From Eunapius fragilis (Eukaryota > Porifera > Demospongiae > Spongillida > Spongillidae): a stretch of DNA of 64,000 nucleotides. Below the pieces are notes generated by a model that did no database searches, had not been told where the DNA came from, and worked only from the letters and a program-made list of their open reading frames with translations. The DNA lies in the NCBI GenBank assembly GCA_963681505.1, contig OY811973.1, forward strand, positions 12,641,525 through 12,705,524. Direction: 5' to 3'. Positions 3,394 to 45,577 of this stretch are shown here, piece after piece. Position numbers and translations under genes: made by a program. Each line of letters opens with the position of its first letter. Positions within the stretch are counted from its first letter, which is position 1.

Positions 3394-3689
3394 TATATAT
3401 ATATAATTATATATATATATATGTATGCACTAAAGCTGCGTAGAGGTAGGCCTGCCATGGTAGGGAACACTGGATAGAGAGGGGCTAGATTTTTTGTGTG
3501 TGTGGGTGGTAGGGGAGGAGGTTCTATTGAACCGATTGACCTACCTCCCCCCCCCCTCCCCCCATGGATCAGCCACTGTTTCCCATGCTGTTCTAAATTG
3601 GTTTTTTTTTCACTATAGGAAACAAACATCATTACAGCAATATGCCTTTATTAACCATGTGTACTAAAAATGTTACAACTGATTCAAAA

Positions 3690-4070
3690 TCACACCTCAT
3701 CACCAATCCCCACACATCTGCCAATCACATAGCCATGTTTCACAGACACAACACTACCATCCTCCTCCTTCCTCCACTTCTGATCTTCCCCACCATTGGA
3801 GGTAGTGACAAAACATTTGGGACGTCCTCCTTCATCAACCTGATAGGTGAGTACCTTCCCATGAAGGCTTGAAATGACCAGGTAGTGTTCCCCATCAGGT
3901 AGGGGGTGGAGGTACCACTGCTGGCTATCAGTGGGTGTGGTAGCCCTGGGATTGAAGATGGCAGCTGCTCCATTATCCTTGCAGACAGGACCATTGGCTA
4001 GGTGCTCCAGGTCAAGCATACGATCATCAGTGTAGTGTTGGATGTAACACAACTCATACTCCGTTTCACA
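3690..4070 (-). CDS. beta-trefoil domain 3, last exon
   Basis: A 381-nt terminal exon, phase 0 at its acceptor (ccacacag), ends in a stop. Motifs are DSQQWYLHPLPDG, YLVISSLHGKVLTY and DQKWRKEEDGSVVSVK. A close paralogue lies at 43,290-43,664. Confidence 0.88.
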   Translation of the reverse strand, partial: CETEYELCYIQHYTDDRMLDLEHLANGPVCKDNGAAAIFNPRATTPTDSQQWYLHPLPDGEHYLVISSLHGKVLTYQVDEGGRPKCFVTTSNGGEDQKWRKEEDGSVVSVKHGYVIGRCVGIGDEV

Positions 4071-7000
4071 CTGTGTGGAGAATTATTCAAATCAACTGAA
4101 GTCAGTAGTTCAGTCCCCAGACCTTTGCATTATGTTCTTATGCTAAACATATTAACATGTGTGTATAGCAGCTATACTGCCTAGTCTTACTAATAAACGG
4201 TAATGGGTGGTAATCTGTGATGTTTTAATGTAAGTTCTTTCGAACAAATAATGCTCCAATGAACACAAGTAAATAAAAAACCTTCTCTATGAGAAAGTTG
4301 GTGGAATATAGGATTTGAAGGCAATGGTGGTGTAAAAAGCAAGGAAACAAGGGTCTGTAATAGTAAGGGAAAATGTCACAGTCCTATATTTAGCCCATTT
4401 GTAGCATATCTATGTTCGTGTGCTAAATATAGGACTATGACATTTTCCCTTACTATTACAGACCCTTGTTTCCTTGCTTTTTATACCACTATTGCCTTCA
4501 AATCCTATATCCCACCAACTTTCTCATAGAAAAGGTTTTTATTTCTTGTTTCATTCATTTTTTCTTTGTTCATGCACATTTTTCAGATGCGCAATTGATC
4601 CGTTGTGCATGTACCCATGCAGACTAAAAAAGAACAGGAGTCATCATTGGGGCCAAATATTATCTACGAAATAGTTGTGAGTACGAGTCCGATAATATGC
4701 AACAAGGCACAGTAATATAAACGGTTAATAAGCACACTTTAATCGTAATAATAATATACGTTAATGAACATTATATTATAAGACTAACCAGTACAGGGAT
4801 GGGGATGAAGTGGTTATTGCCCGCACAGGCAGTGCCCAGTAAATATGATGACTTGTTACTTTGACATGGCAAAACAATAAGACAACAATCCATAATGATG
4901 TGATACAATGTATTTATGAACAGAATTGAAGATGATGACTAAAAATATTGTCCCAATACAGTCCTAACTAATATGTGAGACCACTATATGACCCATCAGC
5001 ACTATCCTAAGGTAATGATGAATGTGTTCCAGATTACATTGAAATCAATAATAGGAGTTATTTTTATTTACAATTCATACATTGCATTATCAGTGGTGTA
5101 AAGTTACATCACAATATGCTTCTAACATGTGGATATGTACAGATTTACCTTCACAATAGTAAAAGCAAAGTTTTTCTTATCTCCAGTTCCAGCTATGTTA
5201 ACAAGAATAAGGTTATACCTCGAAGCTTTGCTAGCTGGTGGCCTAAAGATTTTTTTATTCAGTTTCTTGGACACAATGTTAGTGCCCTCTCTTATCCAAT
5301 GTTGGCTTTCATCATCATCGTTACGTTCTGTAGCCCTCACATCCAATCCTTCTCTTCCACCTTTACAATACAAAGCTTTTCCATTCAACTTTGAAACAAT
5401 CAAAAACCTTCCATCATTCTGTTGACCACTTAAATCACAAATGTACCATTGTTGGGCCTCAGTTGGTGGGGGCGTATATTGATTGGCTGCAATGATGGCA
5501 GTGTCAGTTATTTCAACACAACAATCACAGCATTCAATGTAGTAGACAGGAACAATCTGTGAACATACAAAGCAAAATTTATCCTATAGTAGGAATACAT
5601 CAATTACCATATAAATCTATTTAATTTATATGGGAAAGTATCAACCTTCAATTTCATCACTATCAAATTTGATGTTACATAAATCTGTATACCTTCGTAA
5701 CCTTTCATTCCAAATCTGGGCTTGTAGCTATGTAATTACTCAGATCATTGACTTAACCTTAATTCTCCAGGTCCAAGTCCTACGTGTAGGACCAATATTT
5801 GAAAATTCATTATAAATAGAAATGCAGTTTTTTGGCATCCATTTCTCTACTGCTGTTGATGTGTCTATCGTGCTAAATTTGTCAGTCTATTTTTTAAATC
5901 ACACCCTTGGTTACACGATGCTAATAAACAGATATGGTTCTTAAAAATGCATTATGTAGAGAATTTAATTGTCACAGAAAAAAGCACGACAAGTATAACT
6001 TTTTTGAAGCTACTATATACATTCTATGGCAGTGGTTTTACTCTATTTGCCATTTTTACCAAAACAACACCTGTACGTTTTCAAGATTTTGTCCATTCAC
6101 TTGGCTATTCTCGCAACATGCGTCTGACAAATACCTATCGTTCATAAGCTTGTGGAGCTAGCAATTTCCAAATCTACAATGTACTTTTTATATGGTTAGT
6201 GCAAAAGACCTGTCTTACTACCCCCTTCTTTTAACATGTTGCTCTGATCTTCCCAACATTACTTTTTAGTACTTTAAGTTGCTTTGCAATTTACCGCAAA
6301 TACATCTTTTAGCAATGCAGTATTGATTGTATTTGACAATCTTAGAAGAATTGCAAGAAAGTAAAAATATTTTCTGAATTAATAACCATTTCTACAGTAC
6401 AATGAGATTTTGGTTTGTTCTAGTTTGCAAAAAATTAATTTTAACTTTCGTCCTATGCGTAGGACAATAATCCTACGTGTAGGACGACGGGAGATTAAAG
6501 GTTAAATGTTATCAATTACAAGGTTATAGTGTTAACACTCAGCTCGATTCGATGTTTGCTTTTGAGCAGGAAAGCGTGCACTCAATTTGCACACCAATAT
6601 CCAAGTAATGGATAGTCAATAAATAGCTGCTGGACTCCACTACATGCATATAAATATACCGTTGATGCACCTATGACACTTGTACCTGGAGCTACGTGGA
6701 ATTCTACCCGATGGATTGACAAACTATGTCAACTGTCATTCAGCCTAATGCAACTACGCATCATTGACCAGTGCTTCTTATTTACAATATATGTAGCACA
6801 GTTAAAAAATAGCTTTGTGGTGGACATGGCTGCCATGGAACAAGAGAAATTAGTATAGTGATACAAGTAATGAATCAGCTCTACAGTGCAATGGAGCCAT
6901 TTATCTCAGACCACATGAACAAATTTAGTGTGCCTCATGTTGAGCTTGTATTGGAATCCAGTTTGTGGATCATAAGAAAGTGTGTACCAAGTTTAAATTA

Positions 7001-10000
7001 TTGCATGGAGGAAGTTGCTTCTGTTGATCCAGTAGTTGCTACACTTATTTTGCCCTCATGTGGCATTGGCTTTCCATGGTACCATCTCTGTGGCAGAGCT
7101 CTGTGAATTCCAGACTGCCATCCCATTGGTGGCTAGGCATTGGTGCCTTCTCCTATGTCCCTTCGAACTACCTTGCACATGGTCTTAATACCTTGGGCCA
7201 CCATGCTTTGATGTGCAAGCATAAAGGTGATGTACATAGAGGCTTACTTAAGTCAAAGGGAGTAGGCCATGACCATATATATTGCATTTGTACGCCTATG
7301 CTTGCAGCTCACCTTCCACTAACAATATAAGGGGTTTTCTATTTATCAACTTACACAGCATTCAAGGCAGTTGAACGATGCATACATGTACGCATACAAT
7401 TAAGCTGTGGTTTTAAGTTGCAGATGATGATATCTGCAACTAAAAAAGTTGCTGACAGCAAGTTAGGCAGCAAAATGTGCTAACCTAATGCATAACATTG
7501 GAGTCATATTGCGATGTGTAATGACATTCTTTAATAATTTGCCCTAGTTTTCAGGGCACTTTGGCATGGCTAGTTGGCCCTGGTGATTTCATGTCTGCTA
7601 ATATAGCCACTAGACCCATCTTGTTGTCGCACCTATTGAAACATTATACTTGAAGTTTAATAAGATAACAGTTTGCATTGCACAAGTAAAGAAAACATTC
7701 TATAGGGAAAATGTCCTAGTCTTGCCTCCAGTTAATATATAAACCCTTGTTGGTTCATACGATTGTATAATATTGTAGGGGTCTGTTGTGTACTAATATA
7801 TATTAATTAATGAACCAGTACTTCATGTACAGTTCATTAATGGCTGCTCAGGAATATATAACACACTGTGAGTTTTGGAAGGCACTTGCCTCAGAGCTTT
7901 TGAAACAAGAGGAGTATGAAGCTTCAACCACAATGTCCAAAAGATGCAAGGAAATGACTGAATCTCCTGGTCTTCAATTGCAGGCAATTCCACTGTACAG
8001 CTCTTTGGACATAAAATCACAGGCATTCAAACAAACAAGCCTACGGAAACCAGATATGTGCAGCTCAGGTGTATAGAATTTCTGGTCAAACCGTCTTATG
8101 CAGTGTTCTTAGAGCTGTGTGCAAGGCAAGCACATTGCAAAGCACTGACTAAAAACTTAGACGTGAACTAAAAAATTGTCAAAGTACACTTACATTTTGT
8201 TTCTTTCTTTGTATATGAACATTTGGCACACCTACATTGGTATGAAACTACTGAAATATTACAGCATGCTTGAATTCAAGGCTATTAAAAAACCTAGTCC
8301 AGGACAGTCATCAGTAAAAGCCCTGTAGCTGTAGCACACGTAGCTATTACATCATGCACGCACTGCGCACTTGGGATTCCGTGCTTGTGTATACTTAGTG
8401 CATTGCTAATCACTTCTCTTGTGATTAGAGCTGGTCTTTGTCGCCAGAAGTGGGATATGACCGATGAGCTGAACACCGGCATAAAGCAGAGCAGTGGCCG
8501 CAATGAGGGGGGGGGGGGGGGGGGGGGGCAAAGCGCCACTGGAGCAGAGGACCACTCAGTTCAGTGTGACACCTCTGACAAGGTTTGTCGTCGAAACAGA
8601 TTTCACGCTGTGGATTCAGCTAGTAGAGCTGTATCTAATTGGACGGTTTACTGGAACACTTTAAAACCGCACTTTATTAAACCTCCTCAGTAATTGGCTG
8701 CTTCGGAGAACGAACGTGACTGGGATTTACATATTTCGATGATGATAGCTTACGAAACCAGTGTGCGGGAGTCCACTGTTTGCACACCCTTCTATTTGAT
8801 GTTTGGCGGGAGGCACGCCTTCCTGCTGATGTGATGTTTCAACTTCCTTCTTCCCCTTTTCAGGTAAACTAGTATGCTCTGGATGTGCGGTTTCGCATGC
8901 CAGGACATTTGTACTCGTCTAAATTTAGAACAGCGACACCAAAAAGCTTTATACGACAGAGCAGCAAACGGATCACCCTTCGCAGTTGGCGATCCAGTAT
9001 GGCTTCATTGTCTTGCCATACCAAAGGGGAAATATGACAGCAACACTATACGACAAGGTACTAAAGGAATTGAAGAAGTGCGGAACACTAAAACTCCATA
9101 AGGTATTTGCTTTTGGTATCAAATACAAAGACCAGCTTTAATCACAAGAAGTGATTAGCAATGCACATACATCAATGTATACAGACATGCAATCCCAAGT
9201 GCGCATGTGCGTGCATGATGTTATAGCTACGTATGCTACATTACTCCCCCTCCCTCCCCCTAAGAGTCTGTGGCATTAAGAATCATAAATGTTGTGTCCA
9301 AAATTTTCGGGCTTTCTGCGGCTTCGTGTCAATCTTCTTGTACTTGAACAATTTGCTCAGCAATTTCATCATTGCCTTGCGCTGCGATTTAATGCTCATT
9401 TTCAGCCTGCAGTTGCTCGTGCTCTACGTTATTTTGGACAGTGTCGTCCCGGAACTCAACTGTAATCTCCTCCTCTGGATTGTTCTGGTCCTTCCACACC
9501 CACGTTTATGATTCCATCATCACCTTCAGGCATACTGGGCCTATGTTGCACAGACGTCCTGTTCTTCCTTACTCTTTCACGATTGCACATATAGTTTCAA
9601 GCGATCAAAGTGTGCAACTGTTTTATTCCGGGGGTGATCCCTGTGTTGGATTTTAAAAAGTACGCTACCCAACCAATTTAGTTTAGATGCAACACTACAC
9701 TTTGCAACACATTTGCCCAGTTCAAGTGAATCAGCACGAGCTCTTATTGCATCTCCATTTATATGTCTAGGCCAATAACTTTTTTATAATAATCGCAAAT
9801 GCATAAGACCCCATGTCTTTTCAGTATTGCCTCTAAGATTGAAAACTCCGAGTCCATAAACACAAAGCATCCTGAGACATACAAGCCATTCAAGCCTCCA
9901 TTTTCACTCATTCGAAATTACCAAATAATATTCGTACCTTTCCATATTCTTCTTCATATTGAGCATGACCAAGTTGTCATAGTAACAACCAAATGTGTTA

Positions 10001-13000
10001 ATTAGCTGGCGCTACAAAAATAAAGTCTGACCAGTGAAAATAAAATGCAAATCATTACACATTGTTTGGTACAAACGGCATCAGTTGAAATTGCTTCTAT
10101 CGCAAGTTATATGAAAATAAAGGAAGGAGGAGAAGAACATGGAGAACAACGGGACTAGACACAAGGGGCACTCAGAGGTGGATTAAGGGGAGGGGGAGGG
10201 GTTTTCAGGGGGTTCAGCCCTCCCCCACCCCCCCTGTCTCCCTTTCCTACAAACAATGACATAATGCATACTGCAATTCATGGGGCATTCTGATAGTGTA
10301 CCGTTCATGGATATGCAAGCTGGCATATACACTGTAATGGACTGGTAATTTCTAAGTGTGTAGCAAAAAAATTTGCTTACGTGCAAAGTACGTGCTTTTC
10401 CTCTCATCCTTATTTATGTTGGATCTACCATACGTTTTCGTGGAGTCTGACTAGTGCGAAACGATTTGTCTTTAACTCCTTGTTCGATTTCTTAGCCATT
10501 ATCTGCACTGTTCATTCGTCGGAAGCCTCAAGAGGCATATCAAATCAAGTGTATTACTGTAATATCTAATAGTGTGCACCAATTGCTTAACATGCAATAT
10601 GCAAACAATTCATGCCTGGAGGAAGGTGTTAATAAAGCCATGCATCTTTTTTACTAATCCATAATGCATTCTACATTTGGTAAACATATTTCCCCACTGC
10701 ACATGCACACAACGGTGTGTATTATATGCAAATACTCTGCATGACGTACACCCACCATTCTCAAGATGCTTTAAAAAAAAGCCCAGCATGTTGACATAAA
10801 GTGCATATGCATGTTATGGAAAGACATAAAGTGCATACACATCCAAGATTATAAGCGTTCACACAATGCTGGGTACATGTATGTTGTTCTGCTTGAAGGT
10901 ACTTCAACTTGTCATTACATCTGCATACCATACCCATCTATCTACACACATGTACAGCATACCATTTAGTAAGTATACAAAGATGGTTGACACACAGTGT
11001 TACCATTTCACATGGACTTACAGCTGGCCTTTCATCAAACATCTGGCTCCTGTCATCTTCCTGCCTCTTACGGAGGACTGCTGGATACCCATGTTCTCTA
11101 ATAACTCCAGAGATACGCAGTGCAAAGTTCTCTCTCTGTACAGACATGATATGGTCCCCATCCTTCTTCCATAGTAGGCTTTCCTTGGATGGCTGCTTAC
11201 TGTTATCACAGGACAACACTTTTCCATTCAGTTTGGAGACAATCAGAAATGTGCCATCATCTGATTGGTCAACTAGGTACCACAGCTGGCTGTCATGAGG
11301 GGGAAGTCCCCTCTTACTGATCACAACTTTATTATTATCATTCTTCAGTTCCAATACACAACCATTCAACTGGCTTGTGATGTAGATTGGAGTGGAGTAT
11401 GACTGGAAGGGAGAGACCAATTACTTAACCCTTAGCATCAGGTCTTAGGTCATGGTTGTAAAACACTTTCTACTCATATTACATTGTACAGCCGCAGAAG
11501 CTCATTTCATAGGTAATGTGTGGAGAGGGTGCTAGCTCTGAGTGTTATATAAAAACTGGGGAATGGTGTGCCTACATGTGCAGTTATAATACCCTAATAC
11601 ATGTATGTATAACAATTGTTTAACATTATTAATGCTCCCACGTACATGTGTATACTGCAGAATGTAAATAGCCCAGCTCAGGGTACAAGTAATATGTACT
11701 TAGTAAGTAGCTCACCATGCACCACTGTAGTAAGGTACATGTATCACTAACCTCAATCCTTGGTGGTATGTCACACCACTCAGCTACATAGACATGAAGT
11801 TCCCTACAGAATCATCGCACATTATGTGCGACCCATTATGGAATGTTTATAATGCATACCAATTTGATATAAAATGTATGGTTAAATTTGACATCACATG
11901 TAATTTAGCTTTCACTATCAGGTTAAATGCTTTAGTTCTGTCATACACTTAGATGGTTGCATATTTATGAGTTGTGCAAATGATTTTACCACCATTATGT
12001 GATATGGACTTCAACTACAAGTGAATGATGCATACCTTACATCAGAAACACTTCATCCCCCTCCCCTCCTCCCCTAAGGGCGTTCAGCTTACAATGTTGC
12101 CAGCTGCTCTTCATTAACACGTCCTGGGACTACAGAGAAGAAGTATGCAATATTAATACACCCAAACCAGCAATGGGCTTTAAATGGAAGTGGAGACCAA
12201 TATACTGGTAATGTACCTGTACTACACATACCCTCATAATGTTCAAAATGATCATTGATAATTATAGTTGCCCCTCCCACCCCACAAGGTCACAGTCACA
12301 CAGAGGTAGGTCCCCAGGCTATATAGTGTGAGTGTGTGTGTGTGGGGGGGGGGGGGGGGGGGTTGGGGCTTACGTATTGGATCATGTGAATTGCCATGTA
12401 CATGTGGTGAGATAAAAACTAATTGCCTCATAATCTGTAATAGTGTCCTTGTTGACATTGAAACTGCATTAATTACTACAATGTATAAGCATAACCTGTA
12501 CAATGTCCCATACCAGATATACTCTTCCTGTGACGATTGAACAGCCAGTAGGCCAAGATTGCTATGGTCACTACAAATACAACAACGGGTACACCAAGAC
12601 CAATTCCAACACCAACACCAACTGCAACTGAGGGAACAGAACTATCACATAACACAGTTATACTAGAGGTGTACTTAATGAATGTACACCTGTGCTCATC
12701 TTTGTATGCATGAGATGAACCATGCACATGTACATACAGGTTACATGTATGCAAACTGCATAGATGTGTTGAATTACATATAAATCCATTGAGTAGTGTA
12801 TTAACAACTGGTTCCCAGCTGGCTAGTATTTGCATACCCAACACCACAAAAAGGTAACAGATTCACGAGAATTTATAACTAACCTGATGGCATACAGGCA
12901 TACTCAATGCATGTATACCTGTACTCATCACTGTATGCACGGGATGAACCTTGCACATGTACACAAACCAATATACAGATTACATGTATGCAAACTGTGT

Positions 13001-15084
13001 TGAAAGAAGGATTTACATATAAATCCATTATTCAATCTGGCTAGTATTTGCATACCCAACACCACCTCCTGCTGCAAAAAGGTAACAGAGCAGATACAAC
13101 TAACCTGATGACGTCTGTTCATTAATAATCTCAGTACCTGTGATGGATTAAGAACACATCTTGTCAAATAAGGCACACAATAGCTAATTAATTAACCAAA
13201 CATAACATTTCCACAGCCCTAACCTTGCTTGGGGTCACTCCATGGCCCAACTCCGTCCCCATTTATGGCTGCTATGGTAACAGTGTACAGGGCTCCTGTT
13301 GTCTTTACATTTTGGATATAGGTACAATCTGATCCAGAGCAGATGACCTTAGCAGAAGGTGAGGATGTGGTGTTGAAACCTTGTGATGAAGACATTATCT
13401 GGTACCTTGTGACGTTACCTCCCTATATAAGGGCAATAGTGGTGTATAATGAAATATGCAGTGTTATCATTAGTAATATAATGTTACTACAGTGCAGTTT
13501 GCTTGTTGCAGCTTTGCTTGCAGTACATATCCCGTTTGAAGCAGTTGCACTCTACGTCAGGCGACTCAGGCCAAATTGTATTTTCCAACGTTAATCATAA
13601 CGCCTAACTGCAAACTAATAACAATGCGTAACAGCTGCTAAACGTAACTATTGCGCCTATTGCGTAACAGCTGCCCGTATATTATTGACTGCCAATGCAA
13701 GCTAAAAAAAATCCCACGAATAAAAGTTAATACTACAACACAGACAATATTCTTCCATATTGCACTCCCTGCTAAGAAGAAAAAAAAGGGATGAAGGGAA
13801 AAAAATTGACATCACCAGGATTCTAACCGTCTGTGGTTTTTCTTTGTAACAGTGTTCCACATGCGCACGCGGGGTTTCGTGCATGTGTACCAGACGGAAA
13901 GAAACCTGTTTACAAAGTCTTCTAGCTCTATGGAAGGCCATATCAATAAAGTAATATATAGTACATGTACACTAACATGCTCTGAGTGGCAACTGCAATT
14001 GATGAAACTGTGTTGTTGTTTTAAAATTGTTTGAGACTATAACATTATTCTGTATCAAATTCATGGGCACATAAAGGTGCCTTCCGCACTTCAAGGGTTA
14101 ATGTGGTGCTCATGTACACCCCAGGTGTCATTGATGTGGTGCTCATGTACACCCCAGTGGTCATTAATGTGGTGCTCATGTACACCCCAGTGGTCATTGA
14201 TGTGGTGCTCATGTACACCCCAGTGGACATTAATGTGGTGCTCATGTACACCCCAGTGGTCATTAATGTGGTGCTCATGTACACCCCAGTGGTCATTGAT
14301 GTGGTGCTCATGTACACCCCAGTGGTCATTAATGTGGTGCTCATGTACACCCCAGTGGTCATTGATGTGGTGCTCATGTACACCCCAGTGGACATTAATG
14401 TGGTGCTCATGTACACCCCAGTGGTCATTAATGTGGTGCTCATGTACACCCCAGTGGTCATTGATGTGGTGCTCATGTACACCCCAGTGGTCATTAATGT
14501 GGTGCTCATGTACACCCCAGTGGTCATTGATGTGGTCTCATGTACACCCCAGTGGTCATTGATGTGGTGCTCATGTACACCCCAATGGTCATTAATGTGG
14601 TGCTCATGTACACCCCAGTGGTCATTAATGTGGTGCTCATGTACACCCATAGTCTCATACCACATGCGTCCATGTGATGATCAGTTGGGTGGTCGTATCC
14701 AGTAGTAACTGCTGCACCCTGATGTTTGTAGGGGGGGGGGACACTGGAGGGGGAGGAGCTAGAGGTAATATCATGGCAACGTACCACGTTGGTACACTTA
14801 CATGTTCCAGTGTTTATGTATGTTGAGTTACTTCCAGCACAGTTGATGGCCACCACTGTTATGAAGATGGGGGTATTACTGGGTAAGCCATCAAATGTGG
14901 TGTTAGGTGACAAAGTGACTACACTTCTTTCACTTCCTGTCCCCATCAGAGAGATGTTGTAGTAGGCGGGGCTACCTCCATATGAAGAAGCTGTCACCAT
15001 GACAACCAGAGTATTCAGTCCAGGTGCTCCTGATACAGAGATTGGTCCTGGTGGAGCTGTAGTTTGTGTGTGTGCGCGTGCGTG

Positions 15085-15162
<78 letters not shown>

Positions 15163-15839
15163 TTACACATGTACATGTAAGTGTGCATCAATGTGTGTGT
15201 ATTGCACAAAAATAACAGGAGATGATATAGGTATTCAATGTAGTCATGTGCCTTAAATGCTTGCATTATACACCTGAATATCAAATATGCATTAGTGCAC
15301 CTCAGGTCTATAAAAAATGTTAGCCTTACCTACAGCATACAGGGTGGTTGATCCGATAGTTCCTATGACCATACCAGATTGGCCAGTAGATGTGCATGTT
15401 ACCATGGTACCATTCAGACCAGATGACATCACAAAGGACAGTGTGGAAGCATTGCAATAGCCTGCAATAGGATTGGAGTTTGTTGCTGTGAATGTTGAGG
15501 CACACACAGCAGGTGTCTGGGTGCCACAGCTGACACTAGCAGATTGGTCCAAATTCAGTATACAGCTTGGAGATGATGTCGTCCATCTTGTGATAGTCCC
15601 AAGCATACCACCAGGTACGTTACACATCAGCTTCACTGCAGTGTTTGGACATATCTGCTGTGCACAAGGCTGGCCATCTGCCTGACATGGAAGAGGTTGC
15701 CCTGACGACACTGTGGATGGTAAATAAAATAAAATAAACTGTACTGTTACATGTATGGATGCATGTGGTATAGATAAATGGTACACTCACTTGAAATTGA
15801 AAGAACCAATGTGAAGATTATCACGAATGATGTGCACAT
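3690..15839 (-). CDS. receptor: Ig-like, 2 FnIII, TM, three cytoplasmic beta-trefoils
   Basis: Twelve exons on the minus strand: 15839-15791, 15710-15330, 15056-14802, 14743-14661, 13422-13224, 13137-13105, 12627-12514, 12129-12093, 11803-11752, 11402-11022, 5556-5149, 4070-3690. Every junction has GT-AG ends and every phase agrees, giving 790 residues. The start is the only ATG followed by a signal-peptide-like stretch (MCTSFVIIFTLVLSIS). Residues 17-143 are cysteine-rich and Ig-like, with no family match claimed. FnIII-1 spans 144-229 and FnIII-2 spans 229-323; in FnIII-2 an 83-nt exon supplies the PPPTNIRV...ITW half. The transmembrane helix (334-363) is followed by NRHRKS, which predicts a cytoplasmic C terminus. 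Three beta-trefoil domains (402-528, 529-664, 665-790) carry SKLNGKVL and QxW-like motifs typical of ricin-B lectins. A surface adhesion or recognition receptor is inferred; the ligand is unknown. Alternatively, exons 9-12 could belong to a separate lectin gene, but phase continuity argues for one gene. Confidence 0.75.
4262..4552. mobile_element. foldback MITE, AACAAGTAAATAAA family, copy 1
   Basis: About 290 bp with two arms of roughly 130 bp that are near-perfect reverse complements: acaagtaaataaaaaacctt at one end and its complement at the other, with ggtgtaaaaagcaaggaaac in both arms. It lies in the last intron side of the receptor locus and is absent from block B. Related copies lie at 27,002-27,294 and 60,563-60,860. 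Confidence 0.85.
5149..5556 (-). CDS. beta-trefoil domain 2 exon
   Basis: A 408-nt exon, phase 0-0, encodes 136 residues with a CCDCC cysteine cluster near its start, then AQQWYICDL, FLIVSKLNGKALYC and SQHWIREGTNIVSKK, which match the three-fold ricin-B pattern. The acceptor is gttcacag, the donor GTAAAT. A 5.5-kb intron, the longest in this gene, separates it from domain 1. Confidence 0.85.
5557..11021. other. long intron of receptor gene
   Basis: The 5.5-kb intron lies between beta-trefoil exons 1 and 2. It contains a Ty3/Gypsy integrase fossil (about 8,690-9,110), a short G run at 8,508-8,528, and a relic resembling the GCGGATCC family at about 10,172. Small reading frames at 6,673-7,330 and 7,810-8,076 have no recognisable domains or splice context, and I see no supported host gene here. 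Confidence 0.6.
8690..9110 (+). mobile_element. Ty3/Gypsy integrase fossil fragment
   Basis: The plus-strand translation shows remnants typical of the integrase core end and C-terminal region of Gypsy-type pol (ERDWDLHISMMIAYETSVRE, TPFYLMFGGRHA, LYDRAANGSPFAVGDPVWL). It is a short broken piece with no LTRs seen, lying inside a host intron. Its age is probably old, since frames and surroundings are eroded. Confidence 0.7.
11022..11402 (-). CDS. beta-trefoil domain 1 exon
   Basis: A 381-nt exon of the receptor gene, phase 0 at both ends, encodes one complete ricin-type trefoil of 127 residues. Visible repeats are ITSQLNGCVLELK, SQLWYLVDQSDDGTFLIVSK and LLWKKDGDHIMS. The acceptor is cttccag and the donor GTAAGT. 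Preceding exon 9 (11,803-11,752) encodes the linker ELHVYVAEWCDIPPRIE. Confidence 0.85.
12660..13105. repeat. tandem duplication around exon 6
   Basis: Two diverged copies of a roughly 220-bp segment (about 12,665-12,890 and 12,895-13,105). Both contain ttacatgtatgcaaactg, tttacatataaatccatt and ggctagtatttgcatacccaac, and end at a ctaacctgatg motif, which on the minus strand is the donor end of the 33-nt exon 6. The second copy includes the real exon end; the first keeps only a donor-like vestige. Confidence 0.75.
14098..14655. repeat. 33-bp minisatellite at exon 4 donor
   Basis: About 17 tandem copies of a 33-bp unit with the core GTGGTGCTCATGTACACCCC followed by agtggtcattaat or gat. On the minus strand the array begins within a few bases of the GT donor of exon 4 (14,660). 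The paralogous intron has only about four copies (36,322-36,440). Confidence 0.95.
15062..15157. repeat. TG/CA microsatellite at exon 3 acceptor
   Basis: A (TG)n tract with a few interruptions. On the minus strand it is (CA)n and ends five or so bases before the AG acceptor of exon 3, taking the place of a normal pyrimidine tract. Confidence 0.95.
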
Positions 15840-35030: not shown

Positions 35031-36321
35031 GCGTGTGTTAGGCACATTTGTACTGCAGGGAGGTGGAGGGGCTTAGACATCAGATCATGTGATGCATGTG
35101 TGTACTGTCAAGGCAAGCAAATGGGAAGATTGCGATGTACAGTAAGGAGCTTAATTGCCTTATAACTCCACATGGACCTCACGACTGAATACTGAATACA
35201 CAGAAACAGTATCATAAGCTGTATACATACCAGATATACTCTTCCTGTGACGATTGAACAGCCAGTAGGCCAAGATTGCTATGGTTACTGCAAATACCAC
35301 AATGGGCACACCAAGGCCAATTCCAACACCAACAGCAACTGCAACTGAGGGAATCCATTAGTAATACATTTACTACACCAGTATCTCTACTCATCATTAC
35401 AAACATGGCAACATACATGTACCTGAATTGGTCTGACAGATTGCATACATGTATACCATGTCATATGTGCATCGATGTAACATGTAACATAAAGTATCAT
35501 ATAAGCTCCTCCTCTCTACAACCCCCCCCCCCCCCCCCACATCCCTTTCAAAAGCCGTATCGATTTCTGGATATTATTTTGCAGAAGCATTCATAGTTAT
35601 GGAAAATTATTTAAACACAAGCCATTTTTACTAATGGAGGCAGAGTGGGAGGGGGTGGGGTTGGAAACTGAAATGTGGTACTGTATGGTACATGTAAATA
35701 GTTCATGTCATTACTGAATAGCGAGAGTTAATTTTTAATTTCACTCCTTCTTATCCAGGTAGCCAAACCTACAAATGTAGCAGAGTAAATATTTCATAAC
35801 TAACCTGATGACATCTGCTTATTAATGACCTCAGTACCTGTGATGGATACAACAAAGATTAAACAGATCTGACGAATTCATTAATTCAGGCAGAAAGAAA
35901 CAGTTGTAGTTTTGAAATGTGAAAGTACAATCATACTATAGCACCAAACATAATATTTCCACAGCCCTAACCTTGCTTGGGGTCACTCCATGGCCCAACT
36001 CCGCCCCCATTTATGGCTGCTATGGTAACACTGTACAGGGCTCCTGTTGTCTTTACATTTTGGTTATAGGTACAAATCTGATCCAGAGCAGTAGTCCTTA
36101 ACAGAAGGTGAGGATGTGATGTTGAAACCTTGTGATGAAGACATTATCAGGTAACCTGTGACGTTACCTCCCTATATAAGGGCAATAGTGGTGTATGAGG
36201 AAATATGGAGCATCAATGAATGTGAGACATATGTAGTGTTATCATTAGTAATATAATGTTATTGACCCATAAATGAATGGCTGCTGAAAGCTAATTAAAG
36301 TTAAAGTCAAAGAGATATTTT

Positions 36322-36440
36322 AATGTGGTGCTCATGTACACCCCAGTGGTCATTGATGTGGTGCTCATGTACACCCCAGTGGTCATTAATGTGGTGCTCA
36401 TGTACACCCCAGTGGTCATTCATGTGGTGCTCATGTACAC
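36322..36440. repeat. 33-bp minisatellite, short allele in paralogue
   Basis: Four copies of the same GTGGTGCTCATGTACACCCC unit found at 14,098-14,655, in the same intronic position next to the exon 4 donor of the paralogue. Confidence 0.95.
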
Positions 36441-36849
36441 CCTAGTCTCATACCACATGTGCCCATGTGATGATCAGTTGGGTGGTCGTGTCCAGCAGTA
36501 ACTGCTGCACCCTGATGTTTGTAGGGGGGAGGGACACTGGAGGGGGAGGAGCTTAAGGTAATACCATGGCAACATACCATGTTGGTACACTTACATGTTC
36601 CAGTGTTTATGTATGCTGAGTTACTTCCAGCACAGTTGATGGCCACCACTGTTATGAAGATGGGGGTATTACTGGGTAAGCCATCAAATGTGGTGTTAGG
36701 TGACAAAGTGACTACACTTCTTGCACTTCCTGTCCTCATCACAGAGATGTTGTAGTAGGCGGGGCTACCTCCATATGATGGAGATGTCACCATGACAACC
36801 AGAGTATTCAGTCCTGGTGCTACTAATGCAGAGGTTGGTCCTGGTGGAG

Positions 36850-37019
<170 letters not shown>

Positions 37020-37519
37020 ATAAATGGCACAACTTTTGCACACAATGTGGTATGATTATTAAGACTAAAGAACACATCACGTCTAGGCCTTGCCCGGGCT
37101 GGTGGAAAATGTTCAGATGGAAACATTAAAGTCCTGGTCAGCATCGAGGAAGCATACGTTTATGTAGCATGTATTTTAATTATACTCATAGCAAATCAAT
37201 TACCACAATTCGATGTCAGCCATGCATGGTGAGAAAAAGAAACTTATATAGCGTAACGTGAAGTCAAAAAATTCAAGTTTATCCAGCTTTGATGATTGAT
37301 GCCGAATAAGCAGCTGAACAATGTAGCGCCAACTTACAAAGGCCTAGCCCACCTCGACTATTATTATTATGATTATTAATATTTAACACCAGATTAGCAA
37401 TGTTTTACACAGGGGTTTAATCTCCTATGGCAGGTCCTTACCTACAGCATACATGGTAGTTGATCCAATAGTTCCTATGACAACACCATTGCATTCATGA
37501 TGAAAGAGAGAGGGATTAA

Positions 37520-44142: not shown

Positions 44143-45577
44143 TTGGGGGAACTTTCTTAACTGAAGTAACTTACCAGGGTTCTGACTATACCACTGTCAG
44201 ATGTACATTCAGTGATGGTCTCTCTCACTACTGTCTGCTCTGCTGCAGTACTGACCAATCACAACAAGGCTATGCATACAGTAACATATCAGGTTTCATT
44301 GGCTCTGTAGTCACTGTTGGCCTTTATGGAATGAAGGCTGGAGCAGTGTACTATTGTAAACCATCTGCTGTAGGTGATGGCACTGTTGGGTGCCCAATGA
44401 CAGGAGGTTTGTTCCTTTGAATAATGTTGATTGAGATTTTAATGCACATTACCTGTTAAAGAGAATATGCCACATAACTATTGAGTTCTTAATTTCAAAC
44501 TCAAAGAGTATCAAGGTTATAAATGAATACCTTGCCAATAAAGCAAGACAAATGAGTTTGTTTTTTAAAGGACAAAAACATCATCATCTTACCTTGTTAT
44601 AAATATATCCCACTTGTTGCAGAAATGCTTTTGCAATTAATAGACACATAGATTTGTAATAGCTTTATACATACAATGCATACTATAATTGCACGACTTC
44701 TCATTAACTGTATTATACAATGCATGCATATATAATCACACAGTTAATGAGAGGTGGTGCAATAAATCAACTGAAACATTGTTCAGGTGATGGTAGGTCC
44801 ACACCATCTGACATTTCTTCCTTTTGTCCAAGAGCTCTCCAAGAGCTACCCTACTTCTCAACCAACCAGTGATTGTCTATGTGATGTCTGCCATTTGATG
44901 ACAATTTGGACATTAATCTTACTACAACATCTAAACTTTCAATTTCAATCCCTTCTATCCTCCTCAATCAAAACAAAATTATGTTCTGTATAGCAAATAT
45001 TCAAAGTCCCTTTTAACCTCTTTGTATACCTAACATTTGTAGGGAGTGGATCCGAAGTGGCTACAATACCTACTATGCCTATATCCCAAACACCCAAAGG
45101 TTAGTTGGAGGCAAAGGTGTGTCTGATATAATAGTTAATATAGTAATTTTTAGTCCAATGCTCTAACTTTCACATTCCACAAATACAATTGTTCTTAGCT
45201 GGTGAATGTGTAATCAGTTTTGCACCAGTGGTAAATATGTCTTGATGTATTTTACTTGTCGACCAATTCAAATGTACAAATATGGATATCTGCATACACC
45301 AGGACCATTGACTACCAATGCAGCTATTAAATTTGTTCCCAGTTCAACCATTGGTATAGCAGTCGGTATATCTGCCTCTGTCACCTTTGTGGTGTCCTTC
45401 TCTCTTGGAGTGTTGGTGGCTGCCATCCTGATATGCCTTTGTTACATACCGAAGATTTCTCACAAAAATATGAACCTCCATCCAGCTCCAATCAGTGAGT
45501 ACGAGGTGGTGAACACAACAACAAGAAATCTCCGTGCTGTTGAGATGAAGGCTAACACTTCTTATGGAGCTCATTAG
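44143..45577 (+). CDS. TM receptor exons with ITIM-like tail
   Basis: Exons: 44143-44406, 45043-45099, 45303-45577, all joined in phase 1. The first encodes an Ig-like cysteine-bearing domain (TTVRCTFSDG, HYCLLCCS, GAVYYCKPSAVG, VGCPMTGG). The second is a Ser/Thr/Pro stalk. The third carries TNAAIKFVPSSTIGIAVGIS, then a hydrophobic helix (FSLGVLVAAILICLCYIP), and a 35-residue tail with SEYEVV and a final NTSYGAH. SEYEVV fits the S/I/V/L-x-Y-x-x-V/L consensus of ITIM motifs. The first exon donor (GTTTGT) is weak, and the signal-peptide exon was not found; ATG at 44,124 is in frame but not signal-like. It is a partial model of a surface signalling receptor; the function is inferred. Confidence 0.6.
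44691..44761. repeat. small palindrome in receptor intron
   Basis: Arms TCTCATTAACTGT and ACAGTTAATGAGA, extended by gcac and gtgc ends, enclose a loop of about 30 bp. It lies in the first intron of the plus-strand receptor and is a likely MITE remnant. Confidence 0.55.

Follow-up and report, generated by a model that had tools for sequence, protein, structure and literature searches.

The 64,000-nucleotide stretch of the sponge Eunapius fragilis analyzed here (the window; contig OY811973.1, hereafter C3, positions 12,641,525 to 12,705,524) contains, on its minus strand between positions 15,839 and 3,690, a gene predicted to encode a membrane receptor with an immunoglobulin (Ig)-like region and two fibronectin type III (FnIII) domains outside the cell and three ricin-type beta-trefoils inside it. 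Rebuilt from the sequence, this gene has 12 exons and 2388 nucleotides (nt) and encodes 795 amino acids (aa) without an internal stop. GT..AG boundaries were present at all 11 junctions, and the phases agreed throughout (end phases of exons 1 to 11: 1,1,1,0,1,1,1,2,0,0,0). A first-pass annotation had likewise joined 12 exons with agreeing phases and had named the junctions 12,093/11,803, 11,752/11,402, and 11,022/5,556; these were reproduced exactly. Genome-wide comparisons were made within the 219-Mb assembly of 24 contigs. We refer to the window gene as T, to its tandem copies as A and B, to two divergent paralogs on contig C18 as C and D, and to a further member on C3 as E.

A profile hidden Markov model search of the spliced product gave three stretches of PF14200 (RicinB_lectin_2; E value 8.2e-16, 58.9 bits against a curated cut-off of 25.6) and one fn3 match, the latter to the second FnIII domain. 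When the trefoil exons were scanned singly, exons 10 and 12 were above the PF14200 cut-off and exon 11 was slightly under it (24.2 versus 25.6); PF00652 on the whole protein was under its own cut-off (26.1 versus 29). The first FnIII domain of T had no Pfam match when scanned alone, and the equivalent exon of a sister gene, L057, matched fn3 with an E value of 2.5e-10. Exon 2 carries a C-W-C pattern that is invariant in 8 family members, with the cysteines and the tryptophan in the expected order. A profile of this region run against PDB retrieved IgA chains weakly (best E value 0.037), with an unrelated microtubule protein ranking above them (E value 0.0032), and its single-sequence fold model had a predicted local distance difference test (pLDDT) score of 33.9, too low to use. 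The Ig-like label that we apply to exon 2 is a weak one. Topology and signal peptide were judged by hydropathy alone (cut-off 1.6), which gave an N-terminal signal region and exactly one transmembrane (TM) segment at about residues 338 to 362, followed by RHRK; no second hydrophobic segment was found by this measure. Thus, from the domain list of the first-pass annotation, the signal peptide, the single TM helix, the second FnIII domain, and the three trefoils were recovered by hydropathy and Pfam, the first FnIII domain was recovered by way of L057, and the Ig-like domain stood only weakly. The features are collected in the table.

Table. Features of the window gene and its partial copies (window coordinates)
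Feature	Position	Strand	Evidence
Exon 1: start codon and predicted signal peptide (MCTSFVIIFTLVLSIS)	15791..15839	-	Spliced model, hydropathy
Exon 2: Ig-like ectodomain region (weakly assigned), C-W-C pattern	15330..15710	-	Spliced model, family profile, paralogs
Exon 3: first FnIII domain	14802..15056	-	Spliced model; fn3 in sister gene L057 exon
Exon 4: second FnIII domain, first part	14661..14758	-	Spliced model, Pfam
Exon 5: second FnIII domain, second part	13224..13422	-	PF00041 (fn3), E value 1.1e-8 across exons 4-5; paralogs
Exon 6: short juxtamembrane exon	13105..13137	-	Present in copies A and B; unused in C and D models
Exon 7: predicted TM helix and RHRK stop-transfer	12514..12627	-	Spliced model, hydropathy
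Exon 8: predicted cytoplasmic linker	12093..12129	-	Copies A and B, 3-nt length difference
Exon 9: predicted cytoplasmic linker	11752..11803	-	Seen in copy A, where the GT donor comes 6 nt later; no match in copy B
Exon 10: first predicted cytoplasmic ricin-type beta-trefoil, phase 0-0	11022..11402	-	PF14200, profile, fold model
Exon 11: second trefoil, phase 0-0	5149..5556	-	Spliced model, PF14200
Exon 12: third trefoil (short third lobe) and stop	3690..4070	-	Spliced model, PF14200
AATAAA just 3' of the stop, as in the second exon-12 copy	3647..3652	-	Weak
Broken copy: Ig fragment, FnIII-1, FnIII-2 (frame break), TM pieces	35232..37490	-	Sequence match
Second copy of the exon-12 trefoil, with 92% protein identity across 124 aa	43299..43670	-	Sequence match

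The tandem copies A and B carry matching exons in order, with introns that differ in length. In copy A, exons 8 and 9 were found by blastn in order between diverged introns, and the length of exon 8 (37 or 40 nt) differs between copies by a multiple of three. Copy A departs from T in having a weak exon 1, no GT at the window-gene end position of exons 2 and 7, and an exon-9 donor that lies further on, and it shares with exon 12 of T the C terminus GIG[D/A]EV. In copy B, no match to exon 9 was found, exon 11 matched at two positions, and the stretch examined yielded no exon 12.

The same order recurs across the genome. When 57 Ig-exon hits were compared with 62 hits to the first trefoil exon, 16 of the former were followed on their own strand, within 16 kb, by a trefoil exon. 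Random placement, repeated 200 times, gave 0.53 such cases on average and never more than 3, and flipping the strands gave 0. A trefoil lay near an Ig exon in another arrangement (opposite strand or upstream) for 5 of the 57. The second FnIII exon then served as an additional anchor: of its 71 rows the first 19 were used, and 13 of these had an Ig exon upstream and a trefoil downstream on the same strand; the remaining 6 comprised the broken copy in the window (two rows), one that led to a tyrosine tail, two with an Ig exon and no trefoil found, and one with neither. The three-anchor count and the tail-type count given below are based on 40 trefoil hits (39 drawn from the 62, plus one of 54 from another search), leaving out ricin-type lectins on contig C15 and a block at C3:7.25-8.19 Mb. 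The divergent paralogs C and D could each be spliced in silico into a chain of Ig, FnIII, FnIII, TM, linkers, and three trefoils with 0 stops, in which ectodomain and trefoil exons have the same phases as in T; exon 6 had no counterpart in these models, and the linker proteins of the two paralogs are alike (TYHCTARKHCAP and TYQCTARKHYAP). Member E contains five open trefoil exons whose splice sites fit and the last of which closes with a stop; more copies, some containing stops, lie downstream of them. T is, by these comparisons, one of a multigene family, and the sequence supports both the predicted architecture and the family well. Sequence and paralogs also agree with the first-pass proposal of a receptor that combines an Ig-like/FnIII ectodomain with ricin-type trefoils in the cytoplasm, and we consider it very probable that this is one gene with its trefoils inside the cell.

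Related ectodomains can be joined to a different tail. The sister Ig/FnIII genes L056 and L057 end in a short exon that encodes a TM segment and tyrosine motifs. This exon has 120 matches in the genome (on C3, C8, C6, C20, and others), with YEEV and NAAYG motifs in the members looked at, and these matches point to what is a very large putative receptor superfamily. When the 57 Ig hits were reduced to 55 loci by merging two split rows, 16 loci had a same-strand trefoil downstream within 16 kb, 9 had a tyrosine tail, and 0 had both. On C3, the window-gene cluster sits between stretches rich in matches to the tyrosine-tail exon (12.1-12.6 and 13.0-14.0 Mb). The window itself also holds, at 45350-45577 on the plus strand, one exon like those of the tyrosine-tail receptors, its matched part containing a single TAG. 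The ectodomain and trefoil parts seem to have had partly separate histories, as synonymous divergence (dS) between T and B was 0.02 to 0.065 in ectodomain exons 2 to 5 versus 0.216 in trefoil exon 10, and that between C and E was 0.20 to 0.36 in ectodomain exons versus 0.59 to 0.89 in trefoil exons.

Each trefoil is encoded by a single phase 0-0 exon. A profile of the trefoil family run against PDB retrieved, at E values below 1e-3, chains labelled lectin or ricin B lectin, together with ThreeFoil, which we take to be a designed R-type trefoil. The fold model of exon 10 was of low confidence (pLDDT 64.5), and its best Foldseek matches were mostly trefoil proteins, each of them weak. Exons 10, 11, and 12 each contain two Q-x-W/F motifs (QLW and QMF in exon 10), with a degenerate third repeat; across 15 trefoils of the receptor family, 13 had at least one such motif and 12 had two. 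In R-type lectins, an aspartate, an aromatic residue, and an Asn-Gln pair have a sugar-binding role. Tandem ricin-type trefoil exons at C15:6.408-6.469 Mb (L002 to L008, L018, and others) are about 45% identical to exon 10, and we used 6 of these lectin matches for comparison. The complete sugar-site motif was present in all three repeats of 5 of the 6, the sixth scoring once, and was found in no repeat of the 15 receptor-family trefoils (the detached exon-12 copy in the window included); the motif was written after the lectin sequences had been viewed, and its absence was judged by motif and not by binding. The trefoils seem to have retained the lectin fold and given up the sugar site. Ratios of nonsynonymous to synonymous substitution (dN/dS) between C and E were 0.42 to 0.44 for three trefoil exons and 0.27 to 0.40 for three ectodomain exons, so the trefoil exons are under constraint in this pair. 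The ratio for the first FnIII exon was about 0.27 between C and E and about 0.60 between C and D. Codon values involving copy A reflect frame breaks in exons 2 to 4 and 7, and exon-1 values are not meaningful.

Beyond the way in which the sugar-site motif was drawn up, several observations weigh against or qualify the reading of T as a receptor with cytoplasmic trefoils. No fitting Pfam match was obtained for the Ig exon in any of 8 family members scanned, and the best Foldseek E value for exon 10 was 0.026, with none below 0.001. Constraint on the trefoils was weaker than between C and E in two of three exons between C and D (dN/dS 0.31, 0.76, and 0.71) and in exons 10 to 12 between T and A (about 0.49, 0.64, and 0.59), and exon 9 showed 5 nonsynonymous and 0 synonymous changes between T and A, some of them maybe misaligned at the exon end. 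The linkers of C and D comprise three small exons versus two in T, with different phases, and these exons were selected for fit, which makes them weaker than the rest of the chain; exon 1 was not located in either paralog. Neither type of tail was found within 16 kb at 30 of the 55 Ig loci. The composition of the predicted protein fits a cytoplasmic trefoil tail, short of proof: in T, lysine plus arginine makes up 2.5% of the outside versus 11.6% of the inside, and there are 7 sequons in 322 aa outside versus none among the 422 aa C-terminal to the TM segment, an absence that is not significant (P 0.08). C and D each have 9 sequons outside, above expectation, and 2 inside, which is near expectation. 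E has 10 outside and 6 in 638 aa of trefoil exons, in a count for which the FnIII-1 piece includes about 8 intron codons and two pieces include stray intron letters.

Given these caveats, we weighed other readings of the locus. The region could hold two adjacent genes that were duplicated as a block, one for an Ig/FnIII receptor whose short tail ends soon after the TM segment and one for a cytosolic trefoil protein. Read-through of the exon-8 donor meets a stop at once, exon 8 is preceded by an in-frame ATG, sister receptors with short tails exist, and the divergence between T and B is unequal between ectodomain and trefoil exons, all of which would suit such a division. However, exon 10 has no methionine before residue 86, the open frame around exon 9 has none before or in that exon, and copy A lacks a counterpart of the ATG that precedes exon 8 and has a stop in between. 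The recurrence of order and strand in divergent paralogs on C3 and C18 and the continuous frame that can be spliced in C and D also argue for one gene, and we regard the division into two as very unlikely. A gene in decay, a paralog without function, is somewhat less improbable, given the frame-breaking length changes in several ectodomain exons of copy A and the fragmentary state of the other copies in the window. Yet T is open over its 795 aa with all splice sites present, and dN was lower than dS between T and B in exons 2, 4, 7, 8, and 10, though not in exons 3, 5, and 6, with few changes in any of these exons.

Two further readings accept the chain and concern its trefoils. The ricin-type trefoils known so far are mostly secreted or extracellular, and by that norm those of T might face outward or be shed as ordinary extracellular lectins. 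This is the least probable of the readings, since a signal peptide is followed by a single TM segment with RHRK and no second hydrophobic segment, the trefoils are low in sequons and high in lysine plus arginine, and the sugar-site motif was not found in the receptor-family trefoils. Cytoplasmic trefoils might, on the other hand, still bind glycans. Galectin-8, for example, is used on glycans exposed on damaged vacuoles, and trefoils of clear R-type lectin ancestry (by profile and Pfam), with three or more domains per chain to confer avidity, could act in a similar way. The absence of the D-aromatic-NQ motif from all 15 receptor-family trefoils, set against its threefold presence in 5 of 6 C15 lectins, makes this unlikely, although we give it slightly more weight than the other alternatives. 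We retain the reading of a single gene with cytoplasmic trefoils.

Other features of the region and genome were recorded. In intron 4 of T (window 14098-14648), self-shifted matches showed a tandem array with a unit of about 33 bp that is also present in copies A and B, and the 5.5-kb intron 10 (window 5557-11021) contains retroelement integrase-like fragments recognized by eye, for example at 9577-9783 on the minus strand. Counts of AATAAA in the region had no discriminating power (7 observed versus 9 expected). The locus L041, with a frame of 396 aa, was considered as a processed, intron-free copy and rejected, as its matches keep the exon-intron layout; at L041 positions 721-1529, a 24-bp minisatellite repeats the end of exon 2, splice donor included, in an open frame. 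At C3:7.25-8.19 Mb, six plus-strand copies of a block of about 3.3 kb (L012 to L017) each include a copy of exon 10, with an apparent frameshift or stop in several; L013 to L016 are 97 to 98% identical to L012, and L017 is about 94% identical over 2.4 kb. These copies look like a dispersed duplicated block and were rejected as receptors. Elsewhere, the silicatein active-site pattern CGASYAF (serine for the catalytic cysteine) occurs at one genomic place, in a frame with a papain-family match (E value 1.8e-10), and the reversed control pattern occurs at none. Silicatein is a mark of siliceous sponges, and this silicatein-like fragment supports the sponge origin of the DNA. COX1 on contig C24 contains 9 in-frame TGA codons, as in mitochondria that read TGA as tryptophan.

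The predicted protein shares parts with several known systems. With the R-type (ricin B) lectin trefoils (PF00652/PF14200), it has in common the sequence family, the QxW core, and the trefoil fold; it differs in that its trefoils are arranged in tandem within a receptor, in the part predicted to be cytoplasmic, and in that the sugar-site motif was not found in them. The tyrosine-tail receptors of the same genome (TVYEEV...NAAYG), many of them on the same chromosome, also combine a TM segment with an ectodomain of related Ig and FnIII parts, whereas no trefoil was found in them and the tail is one short exon. Fascin, which bundles actin, has four tandem cytosolic beta-trefoils and is thus alike in its tandem intracellular trefoils, but it has neither a TM segment nor an ectodomain, unlike the predicted receptor. 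It first appeared at Foldseek rank 20 and was absent from the 40 PDB rows of the trefoil profile search (E values up to 1). Lectin receptor-like kinases, siglecs, and DC-SIGN are likewise membrane receptors that include a lectin domain, which is placed outside the cell in the portion of the source consulted (PMC12355970). No description of a receptor with cytoplasmic trefoils was found in a literature search that covered titles and the beginnings of abstracts and few subscription journals, with bioRxiv as such outside it.

We infer that T would be expressed as a type I single-pass receptor, with the Ig-like region and two FnIII domains outside and a short linker and the trefoil array inside. 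Because each trefoil occupies one phase 0-0 exon, the number of trefoils could change by exon duplication. Binding of a ligand by the ectodomain would bring the array into play, and since the fold is kept and the sugar-site motif is absent, the array would probably be an intracellular protein-binding scaffold, as an adaptor or a cytoskeletal link. As related ectodomains end in a tyrosine tail, the trefoil array would stand in its place as the effector. We consider this account as a whole, that of a sponge-family receptor with an intracellular trefoil scaffold, to be rather likely, and the signalling or recognition role suggested in the first-pass annotation would be in keeping with it. A broader proposal is tentative and, in our judgment, possible but doubtful: that these genes represent a new class of animal receptor in which a cytoplasmic array of former lectin trefoils is the effector, within a sponge ectodomain superfamily that carries tyrosine tails or expandable trefoil tails.

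Adhesion and self-recognition receptors of sponges are poorly known. If the account given here is true, a lectin fold would have been turned into an intracellular interaction module, and a superfamily with alternative tails would allow tests of what each tail does when joined to a related ectodomain. Under the broader proposal, and given that the trefoil exons have diverged more than the ectodomain exons in both the T-B and C-E comparisons, diversification may have taken place inside rather than outside the cell, and the system could serve self/non-self or microbe recognition.

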